NCBI RefSeq assembly: GCF_024808665.1
Contig: NZ_JANUBZ010000005.1
Location: 62,001-126,000, forward strand
Length of the DNA stretch: 64,000 bases
Source of the DNA: Mucilaginibacter empetricola
Lineage (GTDB): Bacteria > Bacteroidota > Bacteroidia > Sphingobacteriales > Sphingobacteriaceae
Direction of reading: 5' to 3'
Shown here one piece after another: positions 35,109 through 44,948 of the stretch (position 1 is the stretch's first letter; each line of letters opens with the position of its first letter). Under the pieces are notes generated by a model, which was not told the DNA's origin, did not search any database, and saw nothing but the letters and a program-made list of their open reading frames with translations. Both the position numbers and the translations under genes were made by a program.

Positions 35109-35411
35109 TTAGTCAACTGTTTTCATTAGGGTATTAAAAATTACAAACTGGTTTTCAAATTGCTGGTTGTGAATAGCCTGCAACTGGTGAAAATGTTTGT
35201 TATAGAAATGGTTAAAGTTTTCAATATTATCAGCATAATATTGAACGCAATAGGTTACACCTTCGTTGGGCGAATCAATTACGGTTAAAATTTTGTAGGA
35301 TTGAAAATATCCCGTAGCCATTACAGCCGGGATATGTACTTCTTTTACCCACTTAAGCCAGTTTTCGTGGACAGCTTCATCCACAATCACAGTATCGTTA
35401 AATATGATCAT
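35109..35411 (-). CDS. DUF4286 family protein
   Basis: The 100-residue protein shows the DUF4286 pattern: MIIFNDTVIVDEAVHENWLKWV, HIPAVMATGYFQSYKIL, GVTYCVQYYADNIENFNHFY and a C-terminal FVIFNTLMK. It probably adopts a ferredoxin-like (dimeric barrel) fold; the role is unknown. It ends 3 bases before the rfbC start and is likely cotranscribed with it. Confidence 0.85.
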   Translation of the reverse strand: MIIFNDTVIVDEAVHENWLKWVKEVHIPAVMATGYFQSYKILTVIDSPNEGVTYCVQYYADNIENFNHFYNKHFHQLQAIHNQQFENQFVIFNTLMKTVD

Positions 35412-35430
35412 CGGGTCAAAAATAGTAAAT

Positions 35431-35571
35431 TAGTTGATTAGGTGGGTGGTTGATTGAGAGAGTGGTTGATTGAGTTGCCTAAGTTTGATTAATTAATGAA
35501 AGTTTAACTAAACTACTCACTCAATTAACCTAATCAACTAAGTCAACCTAATCAACCCAATCAACCACCTC
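35431..35571. repeat. Intergenic repeat of TTGATTAGG/TTGATTGAG units in both orientations
   Basis: The left half (about 35431-35490) contains at least four units of the type TTGATTAGG or TTGATTGAG. The right half (about 35520-35571) contains the complementary units (CCTAATCAA, CCAATCAACC). The halves can pair into a long imperfect hairpin, for instance GGTGGTTGATT with AATCAACCACC. It lies between the starts of the DUF4286 gene and the end of the TPR gene, both on the - strand, and may act as terminator or be a mobile-type repeat. Confidence 0.6.
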
Positions 35572-37382
35572 TAAGAAGAAACATCATTTTTATCGCCCCG
35601 CAATATTCTGAAACGTTTGCGGGCTTCGTTTATCCACAGGCTGCCGGCATAATCAGTTATAATTTTTTGATAATAAGCTTTTGCCTGTTCTTTGTCGGCC
35701 AGTTGATTTTCATAGATATCACCCAGCATAAAAACAGCATCATCGGCCCACAGGCTAAAGCTATGTTCATCCGCAATTTTTTTAAGCAAAATAACAGCAC
35801 CTGCGTAATCTTTTTGCTGTATGAGTAAACGGGCTTTGGCCATTAAAATATCATCAGCAAGCGAATTACCGGGGAATTTGGCGTCAATACTATCCAACGT
35901 CTTAACAGCTTTCTCGGGCATCTCGGCAAAAATCTGCAGATCGGCCCGCGCATACATCTTCAGGGCCGCGCCCGAAGTATCATCCTTAATATTGTCGGAA
36001 ATAAGGAGCGATAAGTTTAAAGCATCATTGGCTATCAGCTGCGTGGTGGCTGCTTTCAGCACATCCAGTTGCCCTTTGGCCCAGGTAAAATCACCGGTAT
36101 AGTAGGCTAGTTTGGCATTGCGGTATTTGGCATCCTGCCCAACAGAACTATTAGGATAGTCTTTTTCAACCTGGCTGTACAATAAGGTAGCATCCCAGGG
36201 TTGGTTATTTAAAAGCAAAACATCGCCCAAATCAAGTTTGCAATTTGCCAGTAAGATTGATTTTATGCCGGGAATATTCAATGTTTCTTCCAGTAACTTT
36301 TGGGCATCATTTAGTTTGTGCAATTTAAAAGTTTGCAGATTTGCCAGCTTTTGCATGGCAAAGGCCGTATTGCTGTTTTTGCCAAACTCGTTCAGTAAAT
36401 CGTTATAATCTTTTTCAAGGCTCAGCAGGTCCTCATTGGTATATTTTCCTGATGTTATCCTAAGATTTTTGGTATTGATCAGTTCAATTTTTGCCGGTAT
36501 ATACAAATCATGGTCTTTGCCTTTGCTAACCAGGTATTCATATCCACGTATAGCGGCATCATAAGCTTCGTTTGAGATAAGCGTACGGCATAGTTCAAAA
36601 ATGCCGTTACCATCGTCATTTTGCCGCCTGCTAAGGGCTAACGCCTGGTTCATGGCCTGGTCAAATTCTTTTTGCTGCAAAAACTGCCAGGTGAGCAGCT
36701 CCACATAAAGTGACTGTTGCGGGTCTTTTTGTATCCGTTTCAGCAGCTCAATTTTAAGAATATCGTAATCCGCACCACCTTCATAAATGGTTGAAAAGGC
36801 ATTCTCTGCCTGGTTAATAAAAGAAGGGTTTGATGGTAAAAAGTTCAGATACTCTTCTGTAAGCGCCACCTTATCCCTCTTGTAACGGTAAAGATTTATC
36901 AGCTCGTACGAAAAAAGGTTGTCGTTATGCAACAGTTTGCGTCCTTGCTGAAATATTTTTATAGCGTAGTCAATATTGGTATTCTGATAAAACTGTGCTG
37001 CCAGCATGGCTATTTCATTCTGATCGGGCGGCAGATTTTTAAGTAACTCATCGTAAAGCACATTGGCTTTGTCCATATCGCCCTGTTGAATGTAAGCTGT
37101 TCCCAGTATGATCACATATTGATGATCTTCGGGATGTTTATGGATCATTTTTTTGGCTATGCTGATGGCATCGTCAAATTTCTTGGCACTTAACAGGCTA
37201 CTAAAATATGGACTAAAATAATCTTCATTGTTCTGTTTATACAGTTTTTGATAAATGTCTAACGCTTTTTGCTGCTCGCCGTTGGCGGCAAATTGCTTGG
37301 CTAATTGCAAATCGGTATTCTGAGCAAAAAGCTTTGAACAGCAAACAGATGCAATAAAAAAAATCATCAAAAACCGCTTCAT
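35571..37382 (-). CDS. Periplasmic tetratricopeptide-repeat protein
   Basis: The start is taken at ATG 37382, just downstream of a promoter box; a TTG three codons upstream is in frame. The 603-residue protein has a signal peptide (FLMIFFIASVCCSKLFAQ) and is made up of helical TPR repeats throughout (AKQFAANGEQQKALDIYQKLY, GTAYIQQGDMDKANVLYDELL, LAYYTGDFTWAKGQLDVLK and AVFMLGDIYENQLADKEQAKAYYQKII). Such proteins serve as interaction scaffolds; the partner is unknown. It is the only gene of its transcript by spacing, divergent from the S9-like gene. Confidence 0.85.
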   Translation of the reverse strand: MKRFLMIFFIASVCCSKLFAQNTDLQLAKQFAANGEQQKALDIYQKLYKQNNEDYFSPYFSSLLSAKKFDDAISIAKKMIHKHPEDHQYVIILGTAYIQQGDMDKANVLYDELLKNLPPDQNEIAMLAAQFYQNTNIDYAIKIFQQGRKLLHNDNLFSYELINLYRYKRDKVALTEEYLNFLPSNPSFINQAENAFSTIYEGGADYDILKIELLKRIQKDPQQSLYVELLTWQFLQQKEFDQAMNQALALSRRQNDDGNGIFELCRTLISNEAYDAAIRGYEYLVSKGKDHDLYIPAKIELINTKNLRITSGKYTNEDLLSLEKDYNDLLNEFGKNSNTAFAMQKLANLQTFKLHKLNDAQKLLEETLNIPGIKSILLANCKLDLGDVLLLNNQPWDATLLYSQVEKDYPNSSVGQDAKYRNAKLAYYTGDFTWAKGQLDVLKAATTQLIANDALNLSLLISDNIKDDTSGAALKMYARADLQIFAEMPEKAVKTLDSIDAKFPGNSLADDILMAKARLLIQQKDYAGAVILLKKIADEHSFSLWADDAVFMLGDIYENQLADKEQAKAYYQKIITDYAGSLWINEARKRFRILRGDKNDVSS

Positions 37383-37388
37383 CTTGCT

Positions 37389-37416
37389 CAAAAATAGGTA
37401 AATTAAACTTAAACAA
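37389..37416 (-). promoter_or_regulatory. Promoter of the TPR gene
   Basis: On the - strand TTG (37416-37414) and TATTTTTG (37396-37389) fit the Bacteroidota -33/-7 elements with a 17-base spacer. The -7 box ends 6 bases before the ATG at 37382, so the transcript is predicted to have almost no leader. Confidence 0.5.
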
Positions 37417-37532
37417 CTGCCAGTGTGAAATCATTATTTAACGCTGATAGCGGGTAAAATTGTAGTGACACTTTGAATAGATTAAGTTTATTGTATAACT
37501 TAACCTGATTAATAAACCATAGGCATAGACCA

Positions 37533-39434
37533 ATGTTAAAGCATTTAAGACTATTATTATTTGTACACGTAATAATTACTTTATGCGCTTGTAATTACAA
37601 CAAGGCGAGGCAGATCCCTATTATTGATTTTTTTAAAACTGCAGAAAAAAGTACATTCAGGATATCGCCTGATGGTAAATATATTTCGTACTTAAAGCCA
37701 TATAAAGACAAGCAGAACCTCTTTATCCAGTCGTTGGTTGATGGATCTGAGCGGATGGCCACCTCTTTTACCGACTATTCTATCAGGGGAGATTACTTTT
37801 GGACCTTTAATAATAAGATAGTTTTTAGCCAGGATATTATTGCCAATGACGAGCAAAAACTTTTTACGCTGGATATTGCCGACTTAAAAGTTCACAACCT
37901 TTTGGCACTCGAAAAGGTAAGGATAACATTACTTAACCGCGACAGGGTTAATCCTGATATCATCACCATCAGGATGAATAAGCGCGATCCCGCAAATTTT
38001 GATGTTTACCGATTAAATATCAAAACAGGAGAGTTAACCCCTTACCTCATTAATCCGGGCAATATCACTGATTGGTATCCGGATGTTGATGGAAAAATAA
38101 GACTCATTGCGTCATCAGACGGTGTTGACAAGACCATATTATACCGGCCCAATGATAATGAGCCTTTTAAACCTATTATACAGAATAATTTTAAAACGTC
38201 AGTAACCCCAATTGCCTTTACTGGCGAAAAGAGCTATTTCTACGCACTCTCCAATGTTAATAGGGATAAAACAGCATTGGTAGAAATTAATGCGCAGGAT
38301 GGCAAAGAGCGTAGAGTGATTTTTGCCTGCAAAAATGCAGATATTAAGGATTACGATTACTCCAAAAATAAACGCCAGATAGAGTTGCTTGCATGGCAGG
38401 CCGCCAAACCTCAAAGACATTTTTTGAGTGCCGATGTGAAAAAGATATATGATAAGCTCTCAAACGACTTAAAAGGGAACGAAATTAATATTGTTGACCG
38501 GGACAGCGCCGAGAATAAGTTTATCATTTTTAGTTACACCGACCGGAATCCTGGTTCATTTTATCTTTATGAGACAAAAACTGATAAGCTTACCAAGTTA
38601 GGCGATATTAACTCAAGCCTTAAGCCTGATGAGTTGTGCGAAATGAAGCCCGTATCATTTAAAGCCAGCGATGGTATGATTATAAACGGATACCTCACTT
38701 TGCCGCTTGGAACTAAAAAAACTAATCTACCCCTGATAGTAATGCCGCACGATGGTATTTTTGGTCAGAGTTTTTGGTGGGGGTATAACCAGGAAGTGCA
38801 ATTCTTAGCCAATAGGGGCTACGCGGTATTCCAGGTTAACTACCGTGGTTCAACCGGGTATGGTAAAGATTTTTATAGTGCCGGATTTAAGGAAGTTGGT
38901 GGTAAAGTACAACAGGATATTACCGATGGTGTGCATTGGCTAATTAATACTAAAGTAGCCAACCCTAAAAAGATAGCTATTTTTGGAGCTGGGTTTGGTG
39001 GATTTTCTGCCTTATACGGCGTGTCATTTCAGCCGCAGCTATATAATTGTGCAATTGTTCAGCACGGCTTAATTAACTTTTTTACTTATATTAAGGATGC
39101 TCCGCCGTTTTACAAACCAAAAGTAAAAATGATGTATGAAATGGTTGGCGACCCTGAAACAGATGCCGCCGGCCTCAGAGCTATATCCCCGGTATTTCAT
39201 ACCGATAAAATAAGGGCGCCACTGCTTATTTTCCAGGGCGCGAAGGATGACAGGGCCAACATCAGCGAGCTTAACCAGTTTGTGCGCGAGCTGCAACGGC
39301 AAAATGGCAATGAAAATGTAAAGTATTTTCTGAAACCTAATGAACGTACCGTTTTTAGAAGCGAGAGCAATAAAATGCAGATGTACACCGAGATAGAAAA
39401 GTTTTTGGAGCATAATATGCGGGATAATCAATAG
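37533..39434 (+). CDS. S9 prolyl-oligopeptidase-like lipoprotein without catalytic Ser and His
   Basis: The 633-residue protein has a lipoprotein-like signal (VHVIITLCAC, Cys 20), an N-terminal beta-propeller-like half beginning with TFRISPDGKYISYLKPYKDK, and a C-terminal alpha/beta-hydrolase half with the S9 landmarks EVQFLANRGYAVFQVNYRGS and TGYGKDF. The nucleophile motif GxSxGG is GAGFGG at 485-490, so Ser is replaced by Gly 487. The Asp in QGAKDDRAN (Asp 572) is kept, but the His of the usual NEGHGF is Thr 606 in NERTVF. It is probably a pseudoenzyme on the periplasmic face. The sensor kinase gene starts 7 bases later, so it may be a ligand-binding partner of that kinase. Confidence 0.87.
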   Translation: MLKHLRLLLFVHVIITLCACNYNKARQIPIIDFFKTAEKSTFRISPDGKYISYLKPYKDKQNLFIQSLVDGSERMATSFTDYSIRGDYFWTFNNKIVFSQDIIANDEQKLFTLDIADLKVHNLLALEKVRITLLNRDRVNPDIITIRMNKRDPANFDVYRLNIKTGELTPYLINPGNITDWYPDVDGKIRLIASSDGVDKTILYRPNDNEPFKPIIQNNFKTSVTPIAFTGEKSYFYALSNVNRDKTALVEINAQDGKERRVIFACKNADIKDYDYSKNKRQIELLAWQAAKPQRHFLSADVKKIYDKLSNDLKGNEINIVDRDSAENKFIIFSYTDRNPGSFYLYETKTDKLTKLGDINSSLKPDELCEMKPVSFKASDGMIINGYLTLPLGTKKTNLPLIVMPHDGIFGQSFWWGYNQEVQFLANRGYAVFQVNYRGSTGYGKDFYSAGFKEVGGKVQQDITDGVHWLINTKVANPKKIAIFGAGFGGFSALYGVSFQPQLYNCAIVQHGLINFFTYIKDAPPFYKPKVKMMYEMVGDPETDAAGLRAISPVFHTDKIRAPLLIFQGAKDDRANISELNQFVRELQRQNGNENVKYFLKPNERTVFRSESNKMQMYTEIEKFLEHNMRDNQ

Positions 39435-39441
39435 GCCCGTT

Positions 39442-41082
39442 ATGAAAACCGATAAACATCTCTACCGGAAGAATTTTTCTTTGATCATCGTTTTTTTGGT
39501 GCTCATTTCGGTAACTTTTGTTATTGCGCTTTTTGTATCCTATAACTTAAATGCCAAGTATGTTGAAAATGAGTTTGCATCGAAAAAGATAGATGTGCTG
39601 GAGCAAACTATTAAACCGTATAATGATCTTTTTCAAAGCAAAATACCCGAAATAACTTCGTACCAGGGCTTTCTTGATTCGGCATCAGCATCAAGATATG
39701 CCGACGTGGTTTTTACCGACTACCCGTTTGTTAAAATTATTCTTTTTTACGATGCCCGCATAGGGAATCAACGGAAAAGTGCGGTCAATATTAATAACCT
39801 GGGCATTTCGGTAAAGGCATTGTATCGTTTTTTACCCAAAGACGGCGAAGTGTCCGGTTTAAGAATATTAAACTCAGACGAGGTTGATTTTAAGCAGATG
39901 GCACTTAAGCTGAGCCGTTATATTGCTTTTTCAGATACCACTAGAAGTTCAACCCAGGATGAGATTTACAGAACATTTTATGACGTTAAACCGGGAAAAA
40001 TAAGCTATTCAAACATCCTGCGACGGGAAGATGTTAAAACGTTTCGTGAGATGGAAAAACAGGGTAATCCGTCATCATTTTATAAACAAAACATGATGAC
40101 GTTTTTACTCGATCCCTACTTACTAATGGTAAAAAACATACACAAAGAACTTTATCAATCGGTAAGCATACAGCCGGTGGTATATGACCCGCTGGATAAT
40201 CAAAATGGCGATTTGGTTACCGAGGTATCATTACCAGGTGCATTTTCTGATTATAAGTTATTTTTCCGCTCGGCCAGGGGCTATTTAACCGCCGAAATTA
40301 ATAAGCGTTTTGCACCGATAGGGGCATTGGTATTACTGATATATTGCTTTTTAGTACTTATTGGCTGGCTCATTTATCGTAATTTAGATGTTAACCTGAA
40401 GATGTTTAAGTTGCAGTACGACTTTATAAACAACTTTACCCATGAATTTAAAACGCCGGTAAGCGTGATAAAAATTGCAGGTTCAAACCTGAGCGGAGAT
40501 AGTGAGCTGAGCGAAAGGCAGCGTAAGCAATATGGCCGTATTTTAAACGAAGAAGCCGATAAGCTGAATGAACTGATGAATAAGCTTTTATCATTTACTC
40601 AGCTCGAAAATAAATCGATCCATATAAAAAGAGAAGCAATTGATGTTAAAGAGTTTGCAAACAGGTATATTGAAACATTTAAAATAAAATATCCGGATTT
40701 TAAAATCGTTTTAAAAATCAATGATGTTAAAACTTTTTATACAGACCCAGTGCTTTTAGGAAGTGTTTTTCAGAACCTGATTGAAAATGCCTATAAATAT
40801 TCGCATCCCAATAAAAAAGAGCTTGCTATAAATATTGGGCACGAAAAACGTAATATTATATTTTCATTTGCCGATAAGGGCATAGGTATACAAAAAGGCG
40901 AACTAAGTAATATTTTTAAGAAGTTTTACAGGATTGAAAATAAATATAACCAGAACGGAAGCGTGGGTTTGGGTTTGGCTTTTTGTAAAGAACTGGTTAA
41001 TTTTATGGACGGAGAAATTATTGTTAACAGTAAGGTGAATGAAGGGTCGGAGTTTATAGTTACCTTACCTTACGAAAATTAA
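39442..41082 (+). CDS. Membrane sensor histidine kinase
   Basis: The 546-residue protein has two membrane helices (residues about 13-33 and 290-312) around a periplasmic domain of some 255 residues with no family I recognise. The HisKA domain has the phosphorylated His 334 in NNFTHEFKTPVSV, and the ATPase domain shows the N box NLIENAYKYSH, G1 ADKGIGI and G2 GLGLAFCKEL. It sits between an S9-like lipoprotein gene and a response regulator gene, with gaps of 7 and 4 bases, so the three form one operon. The signal is unknown. Confidence 0.92.
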   Translation: MKTDKHLYRKNFSLIIVFLVLISVTFVIALFVSYNLNAKYVENEFASKKIDVLEQTIKPYNDLFQSKIPEITSYQGFLDSASASRYADVVFTDYPFVKIILFYDARIGNQRKSAVNINNLGISVKALYRFLPKDGEVSGLRILNSDEVDFKQMALKLSRYIAFSDTTRSSTQDEIYRTFYDVKPGKISYSNILRREDVKTFREMEKQGNPSSFYKQNMMTFLLDPYLLMVKNIHKELYQSVSIQPVVYDPLDNQNGDLVTEVSLPGAFSDYKLFFRSARGYLTAEINKRFAPIGALVLLIYCFLVLIGWLIYRNLDVNLKMFKLQYDFINNFTHEFKTPVSVIKIAGSNLSGDSELSERQRKQYGRILNEEADKLNELMNKLLSFTQLENKSIHIKREAIDVKEFANRYIETFKIKYPDFKIVLKINDVKTFYTDPVLLGSVFQNLIENAYKYSHPNKKELAINIGHEKRNIIFSFADKGIGIQKGELSNIFKKFYRIENKYNQNGSVGLGLAFCKELVNFMDGEIIVNSKVNEGSEFIVTLPYEN

Positions 41083-41086
41083 AAGG

Positions 41087-41779
41087 ATGAATAAAGAAAT
41101 TAAGATTGCGCTGGTTGAAGATGATGAAAACCTGCGTTTCCTGGTTGCCGAACGTTTGGAATCAGAAGGTTACAAGGTTTTAGAAGCCAGCAACGGCGAC
41201 GATGCGGAAGCTATTATTTTAAAGGAACAGCCTGAAATTGTTTTGTTAGATTGGATGCTGCCGGGTAAACAGGGATCTGAAGTTTGTACCAATATTCGTA
41301 ATAAAGGGTTTGATAACCTGGTTATTATGATGACGGCCAAAGGCCAGGATGTTGACAAAATTGAGGCTTATAACTTTGGTGTATCCGATTATATCATCAA
41401 ACCATTTAATATGGATGTTTTGGTGGCCATGATTGATAACAAGATAAAGTTTGTTTTAAACAGCGAAAAAACAGAATCGTACCGTTTTGCCAATATGGAG
41501 CATCAGCCAAATACTCATTTGCTGATTAAGGATGGTCGTAAAATTGAGCTTACCATATTAGAAAATCGCATATTGCTTTATTTCCTGAAAAATAAAAACA
41601 AAGTAATTAACCGCGAGGAACTGATGATGGAGGTTTGGGGTTATAATGCTGACGTAAATACCCGCACGTTGGATATGCATATTGTTAGGCTTCGTAAAAA
41701 GATAGAATCAAATCCCGATTCTCCTCAGTATTTACAAACAGTTAGGGGGATAGGGTATAAGTTTGTTTATCAGGGATAA
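41087..41779 (+). CDS. OmpR-family response regulator
   Basis: The 230-residue protein has a receiver domain (EDDEN at 11-15, phosphorylated Asp 55 in IVLLDWMLPG, Thr in MMTAKG, Lys 105 in DYIIKPF) and a winged-helix DNA-binding domain (NREELMMEVWGYNADVNTRTLDMHIVRLRKK, QTVRGIGYKF). It is the partner of the kinase directly upstream. The targets are unknown. Confidence 0.94.
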   Translation: MNKEIKIALVEDDENLRFLVAERLESEGYKVLEASNGDDAEAIILKEQPEIVLLDWMLPGKQGSEVCTNIRNKGFDNLVIMMTAKGQDVDKIEAYNFGVSDYIIKPFNMDVLVAMIDNKIKFVLNSEKTESYRFANMEHQPNTHLLIKDGRKIELTILENRILLYFLKNKNKVINREELMMEVWGYNADVNTRTLDMHIVRLRKKIESNPDSPQYLQTVRGIGYKFVYQG

Positions 41780-41790
41780 GATTCTTAGGC

Positions 41791-42186
41791 CTAAGTAAGC
41801 TTAAAGTCTTTTTTAAAATCGATCAATGTAACAACCGATGTGTTGTGGTATTTGTCTATGTTTAAAAGCAGTTTATCGCCTGTAATAAAAAAATGGGCAT
41901 TGGTTATTTTGCATAGTGCAAAAAGATAATTGTCTTTTTCATCGGCAACTACAGATTCAATAGCGGGCAACTTGTAGTTGACGGTTATTGATTGATGGAA
42001 TTTGATGAATTTTTCAGGGAAATATTTGCTGAATTTAGGCCTCGATAATGCAATTATCAATTCGTTGATCATTTCTTCGCAGCTTGCTATCGTAATCTTT
42101 TTGTTGTTATATAGCGGTGTAAAAAAATCAAGCTGTTTATTAATCGCCAGCGAAATCCAAATGTTAGTATCAAATACAACAACCAT
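41791..42186 (-). CDS. PIN-domain toxin of a type II toxin-antitoxin pair
   Basis: The 131-residue protein has the PIN-fold acidic residues: Asp 6 in VFDTNIW, Glu 42 in MINELI, Asp 82/85 in ADEKDNYLFAL and Asp 104 in FFITGDK. PIN toxins cleave RNA in the presence of magnesium or manganese. Its ATG overlaps the stop of the upstream small gene by one base (TAATG), the usual antitoxin-toxin order. It belongs to the PIN group with a start of the form VFDTNxW. Confidence 0.85.
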   Translation of the reverse strand: MVVVFDTNIWISLAINKQLDFFTPLYNNKKITIASCEEMINELIIALSRPKFSKYFPEKFIKFHQSITVNYKLPAIESVVADEKDNYLFALCKITNAHFFITGDKLLLNIDKYHNTSVVTLIDFKKDFKLT

Positions 42187-42380
42187 TAAGATTTCGATCT
42201 AACAGCACGTATTTCAGCCACTATTTCATCCATACCTGGTTTATCTCCGTCGTTAACCATATTATTGAGTTCGGTAGATAAATCGAATGAATTGGGTTCA
42301 ATAACTACTCCCAATTCCTTAAGTAAAGACTTTACTAATTTTGATTTCTTATCCGGAACCTGTATCATCAACCTTTCCAT
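42186..42380 (-). CDS. Antitoxin partner of the PIN toxin
   Basis: The 64-residue protein begins with a short beta-strand and basic segment (MERLMIQVPDKKSKLVKSLLKELG) and ends with an acidic-to-basic helix (MDEIVAEIRAVRSKS), a layout seen in antitoxins that pair with PIN proteins. I do not recognise the DNA-binding family with certainty. The one-base overlap with the toxin gene is the main support. Confidence 0.75.
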   Translation of the reverse strand: MERLMIQVPDKKSKLVKSLLKELGVVIEPNSFDLSTELNNMVNDGDKPGMDEIVAEIRAVRSKS

Positions 42381-42402
42381 ACCCCAATATAATAAAATGC
42401 AG

Positions 42403-43041
42403 CTATATTTTTGTTAATGCTAATTCCTTCTTATAAACCTCTGCAACTATAAAATCGCCATAAAAGGTGTTTTTACTTACTGATTGATAATGATGTTTTT
42501 TATATTGACTATCAATATCAGGCAGGCTGCTTGCCTCAATATTGCACAGTATCTTAAAAAACAGAAACATCGACCTTAATAAAACCCGCTGCCACCATTT
42601 GCCAGTAAGCTGAAAATCGGTATTAAGCCACATACCTCCCAGTTTTAAGGATTGATGAAGATGCTCAAATACTTTTTCCAGCGTTTGTTCCTGAAAATTA
42701 TCAAACAAAAAAGGCGTAATGATCACATCGTATACAGGCTCCAAAAGCACTTCTTCAACGGCCTGGTTAATAAAGCTAACTTGATTTTTAGCTGTTTGTC
42801 TTTTTTTTGAGAGAGCCATCATAGCTGGCGCCACCTCAACATAAGTAATAGTTAATCCAGCGGGATGTATGACGCTAATTTCCTCCAATATCCATCCCGT
42901 GCCACCACCAACTATTAAGATATTGGTATCTGTAGGAATATAGCGCAATAAATAAACCTGCGCTTTGATCAAAGCTTTGCCATATACCAGGCGCGAAAGC
43001 CTATCATAAAACCAGGCAGAATTATTATAGTTGGCAGCCAT
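42403..43041 (-). CDS. Class I SAM-dependent methyltransferase
   Basis: The start is taken at ATG 43041; a TTG two codons upstream is possible. The 212-residue protein has motif I ILIVGGGTGWILEEI, the acidic residue after strand 2 (YVEVAPAMM), and the post-motif VYDVIITPFLFDNF, followed by FEHLHQSLKLGGMWLNTDFQ. The opening ANYNNSAWFYDRLSRLVYG resembles ubiquinone/menaquinone-type methyltransferases. The substrate cannot be named. It lies 23 bases upstream of the antitoxin gene. Confidence 0.85.
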   Translation of the reverse strand: MAANYNNSAWFYDRLSRLVYGKALIKAQVYLLRYIPTDTNILIVGGGTGWILEEISVIHPAGLTITYVEVAPAMMALSKKRQTAKNQVSFINQAVEEVLLEPVYDVIITPFLFDNFQEQTLEKVFEHLHQSLKLGGMWLNTDFQLTGKWWQRVLLRSMFLFFKILCNIEASSLPDIDSQYKKHHYQSVSKNTFYGDFIVAEVYKKELALTKI

Positions 43042-43103
43042 ATGCAACTTTTAACTTGCTCAACAAATTCATATATTTAGTGAACTATCCTTAACGAGCA
43101 ATT

Positions 43104-44948
43104 ATGAAAGCATTCTGTATCAAAATCACTCTTATTGTTTTTATTTTAACCGTAACCCAAAAATCATTTGCACAAACTGCAAGTACCGATGCCAGGTATA
43201 ACCGACAGGAGGTAATGATAACGATGCGCGATGGTATTAAACTGCATACCGTTATTTTTACGCCAAAAAGCCAAACAGGGAAGCTGCCCTTTTTAATGGA
43301 ACGTACTCCATATGGCGTAAGTAATGAACCAAGTCCCGAAAAGCAAACTTACATTAAAGATATGGCTGACGACGGTTATATCTTCGTTTTTCAGGATATC
43401 CGTGGCCGTTACCTCTCCGAGGGTAAATATGCCATGATGCGTTTTAGTCGCGATAAAAATGATCCCAAGGCTATTGATGAAAGCAGCGATACCAATGATA
43501 CCATTGATTGGCTTTTAAAGAACATTCCTGATAACAATGGCAAAGTAGGTATGTTCGGCATATCATACGATGGGTGGACAGCTATTATTGCTGCCAGTGA
43601 CCCGCATCCGGCCTTAAAGGCAGTATCCGAACAGGCCACACCGTCAGACATGTTTATGAATGATGACCTGCACCATAATGGAGCCTTCCGTTTAAGCTAT
43701 GCTTTTGAGTATGCCTTTATGGAAGAGATATCAAAAACAGATTCGCTTTATCAGTTTGATAATTATGATACCTATAACTGGTATTTGAAACTGGGGCCGC
43801 TATCAAACATTAATAAAAAATATATACACGGAAAGCTGCCCAGTTGGAATGATTTTACCATTCATCCTAACTACGACGCTTACTGGAAGAAGGAGGCCCT
43901 GACTTCACGGCTTGATTCACCCAAGCTGGCTATACAGCACGTTAGCGGTTATTGGGATGAAGAAGATATGGTAGGGCCACAGGATGCTTACCAGGCACTG
44001 GAAAAGCAGGATAGACACAATCAGAATTTTATAGTTATTGGCCCCTGGATACACGGGGGCTGGGCCGGCGGTGATGGAAAAACCCTGAATAATTTAAAGT
44101 TTGACGGACAGGCTACAGCAGCTTATTTCCGTAAGGAGATACAGGCCAAGTGGTTTGCCTGGTATTTAAAAGGTGAAGGCGATGGCAAATTTGCTGAAGC
44201 TATATCATTTCAAACAGGATCAAACCAGTGGAAAAATTACACCGCGTGGCCGCCAAAAGAAGCGGTTACGAAAAATATTTACCTGCATGCCAATGGTAAG
44301 CTATCATTTGATAAGCCTTCGGTTACCGAGGCAAAACCAGCCGATAGTTATGTGTCTGATCCTGCTAAACCTGTGCCATACCGGGCGCGGCCGATAGAGG
44401 AAACCTATGGAGCAGGGTCAAAATGGTATTACTGGCTGGCCGATGATCAGCGTTTTGCCGACAGCAGGCCAGACGTTTTAAGCTGGCAAACAGATACCCT
44501 GACCGAGGACGTTACCGTAACAGGCAACGTGCTGGCAAAGTTATATGCCGCCACTACAGGCACCGATGCTGATTGGGTAGTTAAGCTGATTGACGTTTAT
44601 CCGCAGCAATATAAAAAGGAGCCTAAAATGGCGGGGTATGAGCTGATGATATCTTCGGATGTTTTTAGGGGACGGTTTAGAGCTAGCTTTACCAACCCGG
44701 CGCCAATTGTGCCCAACAAGGTTGAAGAATATACTATTAATCTGCATGCCGCCGATCATGTGTTTAAAAAAGGCCATCGTATAATGGTACAGGTACAAAG
44801 CAGTTGGTTCCCGATTATTGATCGTAACCCGCAGAAATATATTCCTAATATTTTTGATGCAAAGGAAAGTGACTACCAGAGCGCAACGCAAAAAATATAT
44901 CACTCTGCTAATTTTGCCAGTAGTATAGTATTGCCGGTAGTGCAGTAA
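43104..44948 (+). CDS. CocE/NonD family hydrolase (peptidase S15-like)
   Basis: The 614-residue exported protein has a signal peptide (IVFILTVTQKSFAQ), an alpha/beta-hydrolase domain with the nucleophile motif GISYDG (Ser 154), an acidic residue in the SGYWDEEDM segment and the catalytic His in IGPWIHGGW, and a C-terminal jelly-roll domain (DWVVKLIDVYPQ, HRIMVQVQSSWFPIIDRNPQ) typical of cocaine esterase and X-Pro dipeptidyl peptidase relatives. It probably hydrolyses esters, amides or small peptides in the periplasm; the substrate is unknown. Confidence 0.9.
   Translation: MKAFCIKITLIVFILTVTQKSFAQTASTDARYNRQEVMITMRDGIKLHTVIFTPKSQTGKLPFLMERTPYGVSNEPSPEKQTYIKDMADDGYIFVFQDIRGRYLSEGKYAMMRFSRDKNDPKAIDESSDTNDTIDWLLKNIPDNNGKVGMFGISYDGWTAIIAASDPHPALKAVSEQATPSDMFMNDDLHHNGAFRLSYAFEYAFMEEISKTDSLYQFDNYDTYNWYLKLGPLSNINKKYIHGKLPSWNDFTIHPNYDAYWKKEALTSRLDSPKLAIQHVSGYWDEEDMVGPQDAYQALEKQDRHNQNFIVIGPWIHGGWAGGDGKTLNNLKFDGQATAAYFRKEIQAKWFAWYLKGEGDGKFAEAISFQTGSNQWKNYTAWPPKEAVTKNIYLHANGKLSFDKPSVTEAKPADSYVSDPAKPVPYRARPIEETYGAGSKWYYWLADDQRFADSRPDVLSWQTDTLTEDVTVTGNVLAKLYAATTGTDADWVVKLIDVYPQQYKKEPKMAGYELMISSDVFRGRFRASFTNPAPIVPNKVEEYTINLHAADHVFKKGHRIMVQVQSSWFPIIDRNPQKYIPNIFDAKESDYQSATQKIYHSANFASSIVLPVVQ

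Follow-up and report, generated by a model that had tools for sequence, protein, structure and literature searches.

The window, the whole 64,000-nucleotide stretch of Mucilaginibacter empetricola DNA analyzed here, carries the genes for a lipoprotein, a sensor kinase, and a response regulator on one strand. They follow each other in this order, 7 and then 4 bases apart, and the ORF coordinates confirm the operon as it had been described. The features of the locus are listed below.

35109..35411, − strand: DUF4286 protein (PF14114), adjoining the TPR gene (41 of 63 regions)
35571..37391, − strand: TPR protein, divergent, conserved neighbor
37453..37470, + strand: conserved 18-bp element GGTAAAATTGTAGTGACA, candidate regulatory site upstream of the operon (genus conservation)
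37533..39434, + strand: S9-fold lipoprotein of 633 residues (β-propeller plus α/β hydrolase) with degenerate triad Gly487/Asp572/Thr606 and lipobox Cys20 (ORF, Pfam, AlphaFold, Foldseek, column counts)
38991..38993, + strand: codon GGG, Gly487 at the nucleophile position (direct reading and column counts)
39348..39350, + strand: codon ACC, Thr606 at the catalytic His position (direct reading and column counts)
39442..41082, + strand: sensor histidine kinase of 546 residues with a double-CACHE-like periplasmic domain (residues about 29-290), HisKA, and HATPase_c
41087..41779, + strand: OmpR/PhoB-type response regulator of 230 residues (Pfam Response_reg and Trans_reg_C)

The TPR gene is divergent in 47 of the 63 lipoprotein–kinase regions, and the TPR match is absent in 16. 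The regulator directly follows the kinase in 40/40 long regions. The 18-bp element is nearly invariant among 17 aligned loci of the window's genus. All 48 genus rows (47 distinct) match it within 4 mismatches, and for 93 of 100 shuffled sequences the figure was 7-9. In the window's genome the element is a single copy at up to 2 mismatches, the exact one. It does not serve as a route to a regulon, as its 4 genome matches at up to 3 mismatches are fewer than the 12 that the reversed control yields.

Residues 416-630 of the lipoprotein match Pfam PF00326 Peptidase_S9 (E 6.7e-39, 134 bits against a cut-off of 22.6), whereas the best NCBIfam match, Dpp5, is far under its cut-off (82.8 of 900 bits). 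The AlphaFold model (pLDDT 90.9) presents an N-terminal β-propeller and a C-terminal α/β hydrolase, and Foldseek aligns it with S9 enzymes over the full length (best 5l8s, E 7.9e-41, TM-score 0.80 by query). In the window's copy, residue 487 in GAGFGG is Gly (GGG), residue 606 in NERTVF is Thr (ACC), and residue 572 is Asp. The residues, the codons, Pfam, and AlphaFold thus bear out the proposal that the S9 fold is kept while Ser and His are replaced and Asp alone is left. The Ser-Asp-His catalytic triad of peptidase family S9 is absent, and the combination of a replaced nucleophile Ser and a retained S9 fold is that of DPP6/DPP10-type proteins. Judged from its sequence, the lipoprotein is an S9 homolog by descent and fold and is not an active S9 peptidase. 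A lipid anchor is predicted from the lipobox; the Cys20 column is Cys in 136 of 137 kinase-linked family copies versus 5 of 21 outside, a count made on sequence only.

The lipoprotein gene precedes the kinase gene in the same order and on the same strand, with a median gap of 8 nt, in 139/139 fetched family loci, so the expectation that it always lies next to the same kinase family holds. These loci include 3 duplicates and 7 located through the kinase. Each of the 137 distinct family copies examined adjoins the kinase gene, and in none of 136 distinct fetched loci is the lipoprotein gene, the first in the operon, separated from it. The kinase sensor half is present in 196 of 201 genomes of the host's family and in 8 of 345 genomes of a phylum sample, all 8 in the host's family. 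The lipoprotein is likewise missing from the 5 family genomes that lack the kinase; four are only 71-83% complete and one is complete. Five genomes of genus g11 retain kinase and regulator without the lipoprotein, with the neighbors in place, so the kinase can do without the lipoprotein. A search for kinase motifs near relatives recovered 22 of 23 known ones and can miss some; the kinase is in none of the 77 regions retrieved for relatives from elsewhere. Two candidates for the same system are rejected, the kinase downstream at L203 being an unrelated PAS/TPR kinase and the regulator upstream at L094 a LytTR regulator. Apparent lipoprotein–kinase fusions in six genomes (open frames of 1188-1216 aa) are also rejected, with an in-frame TAG between the genes in 6/6. 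In the single-contig genome G113 (L118) the lipoprotein gene is split into two overlapping frames, and in G123 (L117) the match covers residues 138-629 only.

The periplasmic domain of the kinase (residues about 29-290), which the preliminary description called unrecognized, resembles double-CACHE domains by fold; Pfam assigns HisKA and HATPase_c to the kinase. With an E limit of 1, 22 Pfam families are listed for 24 kinase N-terminal members, none of them a CACHE profile, and a PDB sequence search with the N-terminal part of the kinase returned no match. A double-CACHE-like domain could bind ligand by itself, which counts against an accessory role for the lipoprotein.

The active site varies among the kinase-linked copies. 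At least one triad residue is missing in 108 of 137 family copies, so the loss is not confined to one genome, and Ser is absent in 102 with the motif aligned without gaps. The Ser position holds Gly, Ser, Arg, Asn, or Glu, the His position 13 other residues, while Asp572 is retained in 135. Within the window's genus, 47/47 copies are without the full triad, and 36 carry Gly in place of the nucleophile Ser; this excludes a single-genome artifact. The triad is intact in 29 of 137 copies beside this kinase, contrary to the idea that loss is always found there; therefore, a copy paired with this kinase need not be dead, and these 29 copies may be enzymes. Relatives not beside this kinase keep the triad in 21/21 cases. 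In a second set (L168-L247), which overlaps the main set (L181/L062 and L210/L096, for example, are apparently the same contigs) and is not independent of it, the triad is intact in 56 of 57 copies away from the kinase versus 4 of 23 beside it. Nearly all triad losses are in copies linked to the kinase. The Olivibacter sitiensis copy (L188) is an example of an intact relative. Moreover, Trp527 is present in 0/29 triad-keeping kinase-linked copies versus 21/21 outside, Tyr488 in 0/29 versus 19/21, and further positions conserved outside are likewise lost, indicating that the surroundings of the active site are changed across the kinase-linked clade, triad-keeping copies included. Three distant paralogs in the window's own genome (L002-L004) were left out before alignment, L001, L005, and L029 were left out as duplicates, and L091b was excluded from the codon and outside-conservation counts. 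A1 took in 31 of the 137 family sequences, A2 the 23 named kinases plus the window, and A3 38 of 80 named loci plus the window.

Mapping the triad on a FastTree tree gives 12 parsimony changes or 16 loss-only events, with 11-14 and 13-16 over 40 bootstraps. A FastTree tree of kinase plus regulator, for which there is regulator sequence for 99 loci versus kinase sequence for 141, gives 13 changes. The window and L034 differ with dN/dS of 0.030 for the lipoprotein and 0.024 for the kinase, dS being near saturation, and six computable pairs of dead copies (13 tried, 6 saturated) give 0.03-0.08. The triad is lost about 11 to 16 separate times, and the rest of the protein is under purifying selection. 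Across 92 genomes, lipoprotein distances correlate with those of the sensor half once kinase core and regulator are accounted for (partial r 0.47, against a maximum of 0.23 in 500 permutations), and the partial correlation is 0.01 with the kinase core and 0.49 with the regulator. As the regulator correlation is as high, these distances do not point to the sensor half in particular.

Because the lipoprotein lies beside one kinase family-wide and its triad is lost many times, the data suggest that it works as part of a sensor rather than as an enzyme. The proposal of a pseudo-peptidase as kinase accessory gains support insofar as a peptidase fold is reused beside the kinase, and fails insofar as the protein is not always dead (29 of 137 copies intact). 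We consider it probable that the lipoprotein is a former S9 peptidase taken over as an extracytoplasmic accessory subunit of a family-specific double-CACHE-like sensor kinase. An S9 peptidase would have been recruited at the base of the host's family as an accessory of this kinase. As to kinase binding, ligand, and output, we infer that the lipid-anchored propeller/hydrolase body would dock on the kinase periplasmic domain, and that a ligand bound in its cavity, or its own placement in the envelope, would set kinase output. Catalysis would be unneeded for kinase control and lost whenever selection for it lapses.

A tentative variant, which we hold to be rather unlikely, makes the lipoprotein a receptor for peptides or envelope fragments, intact copies presenting and then destroying the signal and dead ones presenting it without resetting. 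If true, each triad loss would retune how long the kinase stays switched, and the family would form a natural series in which an enzyme became a receptor about a dozen times, always next to this one kinase. To the same limited degree, the lipoprotein might be an output or co-expressed partner that binds or scavenges periplasmic peptides and is co-regulated with the kinase. Operon position alone is no proof of contact, and the g11 genomes manage without the lipoprotein. However, its gene comes first and in the distinct fetched loci is not separated from the kinase gene, the regions retrieved for relatives from elsewhere carry no such kinase, and repeated catalytic loss with the body kept is more readily explained by a binding partner than by a degradative output.

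Catalysis without the classical triad, by another nucleophile or of another reaction, is improbable. Certain pseudoenzymes do catalyze other reactions, Asp572 is widely retained, and three glycines flanking the nucleophile elbow (Gly485, Gly489, and Gly490) show no variation across 85 aligned rows; nevertheless, the Ser and His positions vary, and more positions conserved outside are also lost. Decay of the gene, with triad losses as a first step to deletion, is highly improbable. The g11 genomes and the split and partial copies are what decay would leave, but no internal stop occurs among the family matches listed, dN/dS in the dead pairs is well below 1, and the mean distance of the lipoprotein (0.89) is close to that of the sensor half (1.00), though larger than those of the kinase core (0.49) and regulator (0.34). 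Finally, an ordinary active S9 peptidase with misread or misaligned residues, a reading that the intact family copies might encourage, does not survive the clear codons of the window's copy and runs against the gap-free alignment of the motif from which most copies have lost Ser.

With the accessory subunit as the preferred reading, the host's family amounts to a natural experiment with replicates: the triad was lost independently about 11-16 times, and intact sister copies accompany the same kinase. It bears on how an enzyme becomes a signaling subunit and on whether the binding role preceded catalytic loss. For a conserved two-component system, the analysis also supplies a sensor fold and a partner that can be tested. 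Sensor kinases with lipoprotein partners are already known, as are inactive S9 accessory subunits in animals. Among the open-access papers listed, we found none joining the two, which does not prove absence from print, and no study of this lipoprotein–kinase–regulator system.

In actinobacteria, another phylum, the lipoprotein gene of LpqB-MtrB adjoins a kinase/regulator pair and its product is said to modulate the kinase; LpqB is not known to be an S9 hydrolase. The lipoprotein is homologous in sequence and fold to bacterial S9 acylaminoacyl peptidases/carboxypeptidase (PDB 5l8s, 4hxg, 8wt1), but these are enzymes by their entry titles, whereas the window's copy is without Ser and His and lies beside a kinase. 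In LuxP-LuxQ, TorT-TorS, and XylFII-LytS, a periplasmic binding protein acts on the ligand-binding domain of the kinase (PMC6321045); the partners there are bilobal ligand-binding proteins with no peptidase fold. The closest analogs are QseG-QseE and DPP6/DPP10. QseG of E. coli binds the periplasmic domain of QseE and controls its activity (PMC6075780), and one operon holds lipoprotein, kinase, and regulator as here, although the order is qseE-qseG-qseF rather than lipoprotein first, and binding is demonstrated for QseG and putative for the window's lipoprotein. QseG is not known to derive from an S9 peptidase. DPP6 and DPP10 are inactive S9B proteins that serve as accessory subunits of the Kv4 channel; they share the propeller-hydrolase fold, and DPP10 also has Gly at the nucleophile position (PMC4350108). 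However, those proteins are animal, of subfamily S9B, and bound to a channel, whereas the proposed partner here is a bacterial kinase; DPP10 keeps His, while in kinase-linked lipoproteins both Ser and His are lost many times. Fly DPP10 is peptidase and channel subunit at once, a dual role that resembles the mix of intact and dead kinase-linked lipoproteins (PMC4873792).

The lipoprotein gene opens a three-gene operon, separated by 7 bases from the kinase gene, which is in turn separated by 4 bases from the regulator gene. The features of the region are as follows.

35109-37391, divergent to the operon: TPR gene and DUF4286 gene, kept across much of the bacterial family (most likely Sphingobacteriaceae)
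37453-37470, flanked by the TPR and lipoprotein genes: 18-bp element, near-invariant in the genus
37533-39434, + strand: lipoprotein, 633 aa (open reading frame; profile name Peptidase_S9)
39442-41082, + strand: histidine kinase, 546 aa (open reading frame), with a double-CACHE-like periplasmic domain (the sensor half)
41087-41779, + strand: OmpR/PhoB-type regulator, 230 aa (open reading frame)

The AlphaFold model of the lipoprotein (pLDDT 90.9; alignment of 39 rows) places an alpha/beta hydrolase after a propeller, and S9 enzyme structures match it along its full length. The catalytic positions are Gly487 (codon GGG), Asp572, and Thr606 (codon ACC). The residues given in the preliminary description are correct, and the feature is real and informative.

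Judged by sequence, the relatives of the lipoprotein elsewhere look like enzymes. Ser, Asp, and His are present in all 21 proteins of the outside-family set (30-43% identity), and this kinase is beside none of them in the 20 regions examined. Among 80 named loci, the triad is intact in 56 of 57 without this kinase versus 4 of 23 with it (Fisher p 1.4e-13, for rows that are not phylogenetically independent). The lone exception among the 57, an S9 relative in a Parachitinimonas record (L201:5929-7797) not beside this kinase, has Leu at the His position. Two intact relatives have other signaling genes as neighbors, a downstream PAS/TPR kinase unrelated to the window kinase (L203:7974-10715) and an upstream LytTR regulator (L094:82-858), which are possible separate ties of this peptidase group to signaling.

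The lipoprotein is matched in 191 of 201 family genomes (E up to 1e-40). A sample of the order, made up entirely of members of this family, yields it in 249 of 250 genomes (E 1e-60). In a phylum sample, 90 of 345 genomes carry a relative, 8 of the 90 being family members. The best named relatives of the window genome are Mucilaginibacter (67-69% identity); Pedobacter, Sphingobacterium, Arcticibacter, Olivibacter, and Pelobium are among the named loci bearing the kinase. These names make Sphingobacteriaceae the most likely identity of the family.

The preliminary description had expected the lipoprotein to be constantly dead beside the kinase. This expectation is wrong, in an instructive way: the triad survives in 29 of 137 distinct family copies, while Ser and His are gone in 91, Ser only in 9, His only in 6, and all three in 2. 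All 47 copies of the window genus are dead, genera g6 (4/4), g8 (2/2), and g15 (4/4) are intact throughout, and g18 (6/14 intact) and g21 (8/12) are mixed. On a protein tree built without the catalytic columns, the family forms one clade (support 1.0), and the triad state requires 12 parsimony changes or 16 loss-only events. At least 11 changes remain when weak branches are collapsed, 40 bootstraps give 11-14 changes or 13-16 loss-only events with the family as one clade in 40/40, and the kinase-plus-regulator tree gives 13 changes. Gly replaces Ser in 93 of the 102 family copies without Ser. Wherever the family has Ser (35 codons), it is encoded by AGY, a single step away from GGY; this can account for the parallel replacement without selection for Gly. 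The presence of Ser without His in 5 of 47 copies of the window genus looks like drift at a disused site.

Despite triad loss, the lipoprotein body is under purifying selection, with dN/dS of 0.03-0.08 in the six dead-copy pairs with usable dS (six further pairs are saturated). Between the window and L034, dN/dS is 0.030 for the lipoprotein and 0.024 for the kinase. The lipobox column holds Cys in 136 of 137 family copies versus 5 of 21 outside. In addition, 34 positions conserved at ≥90% outside (77 rows) fall below 50% in the family, many of them close to the active-site motifs along the sequence. Trp527 is found in 0 of 29 triad-keeping family members versus 21 of 21 outside, and Tyr488 in 0 of 29 versus 19 of 21; the triad-keeping members have Ser at 511 and Thr at 580 in 28 of 29 each. 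Several of these positions are thus altered in triad-keeping members too. The surroundings therefore most likely changed first, at about the time the gene became linked to the kinase, with the triad losses following. Others of the 34 are half-conserved in these members (e.g., Arg82, 17/29; Val575, 24/29), which may therefore retain some features of the substrate site.

Of 63 lipoprotein-kinase regions, 47 have the divergent TPR gene and 16 give no match for it; the DUF4286 gene adjoins it in 41. Neither gene has a match in the 77 fetched regions without this kinase. The 18-bp element occurs once in the window genome and is found within 4 mismatches in 48 of 48 rows (47 distinct) of the window genus. 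It is close in g3 (4/4) and g5 (4/4), and g2, g8, and g24 have a single matching locus apiece; at that threshold it is unrecognizable in the other genera (e.g., g14, 0/18; g21, 0/12). The element is a candidate control site, either for the operon itself or for the TPR gene. After the operon, at 41791-44948, lie a PIN-domain gene, a methyltransferase gene, and an S15 X-Pro-peptidase-like gene. Among 68 kinase regions, some short on that side, matches number 0 for PIN, 0 for S15, and 6 for the methyltransferase; the PIN and S15 genes therefore look like recent insertions.

Linkage to the kinase is fixed, the changes are clade-wide, triad loss is repeated, and selection is purifying. The simplest reading, by analogy, is that the lipoprotein is an accessory subunit of the kinase, and the signaling-accessory role guessed in the preliminary description is plausible. 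The lipoprotein would dock on the kinase, bind a ligand, and set kinase control, the direction of which is likewise conjectural. However, genus g11 (L108-L112; genomes of 1.7-2.0 Mb) retains the kinase and regulator without the lipoprotein gene, which speaks against an accessory subunit; the TPR neighbor is in place in 4 of these 5 loci. In the single-contig genome G113, the lipoprotein gene is broken into two overlapping frames (L118:1768-3689), either a sequencing error or a new break. Distance correlation cannot decide, since the partial r of the lipoprotein with the regulator (0.49) is as high as that with the sensor half (0.47).

As an accessory subunit, the lipoprotein would act as QseG acts on QseE (PMC6075780), and like DPP10 it would be an accessory protein built from a peptidase (PMC4350108). 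Fly DPP10 is both a peptidase and a channel subunit (PMC4873792), showing that accessory function can coexist with activity.
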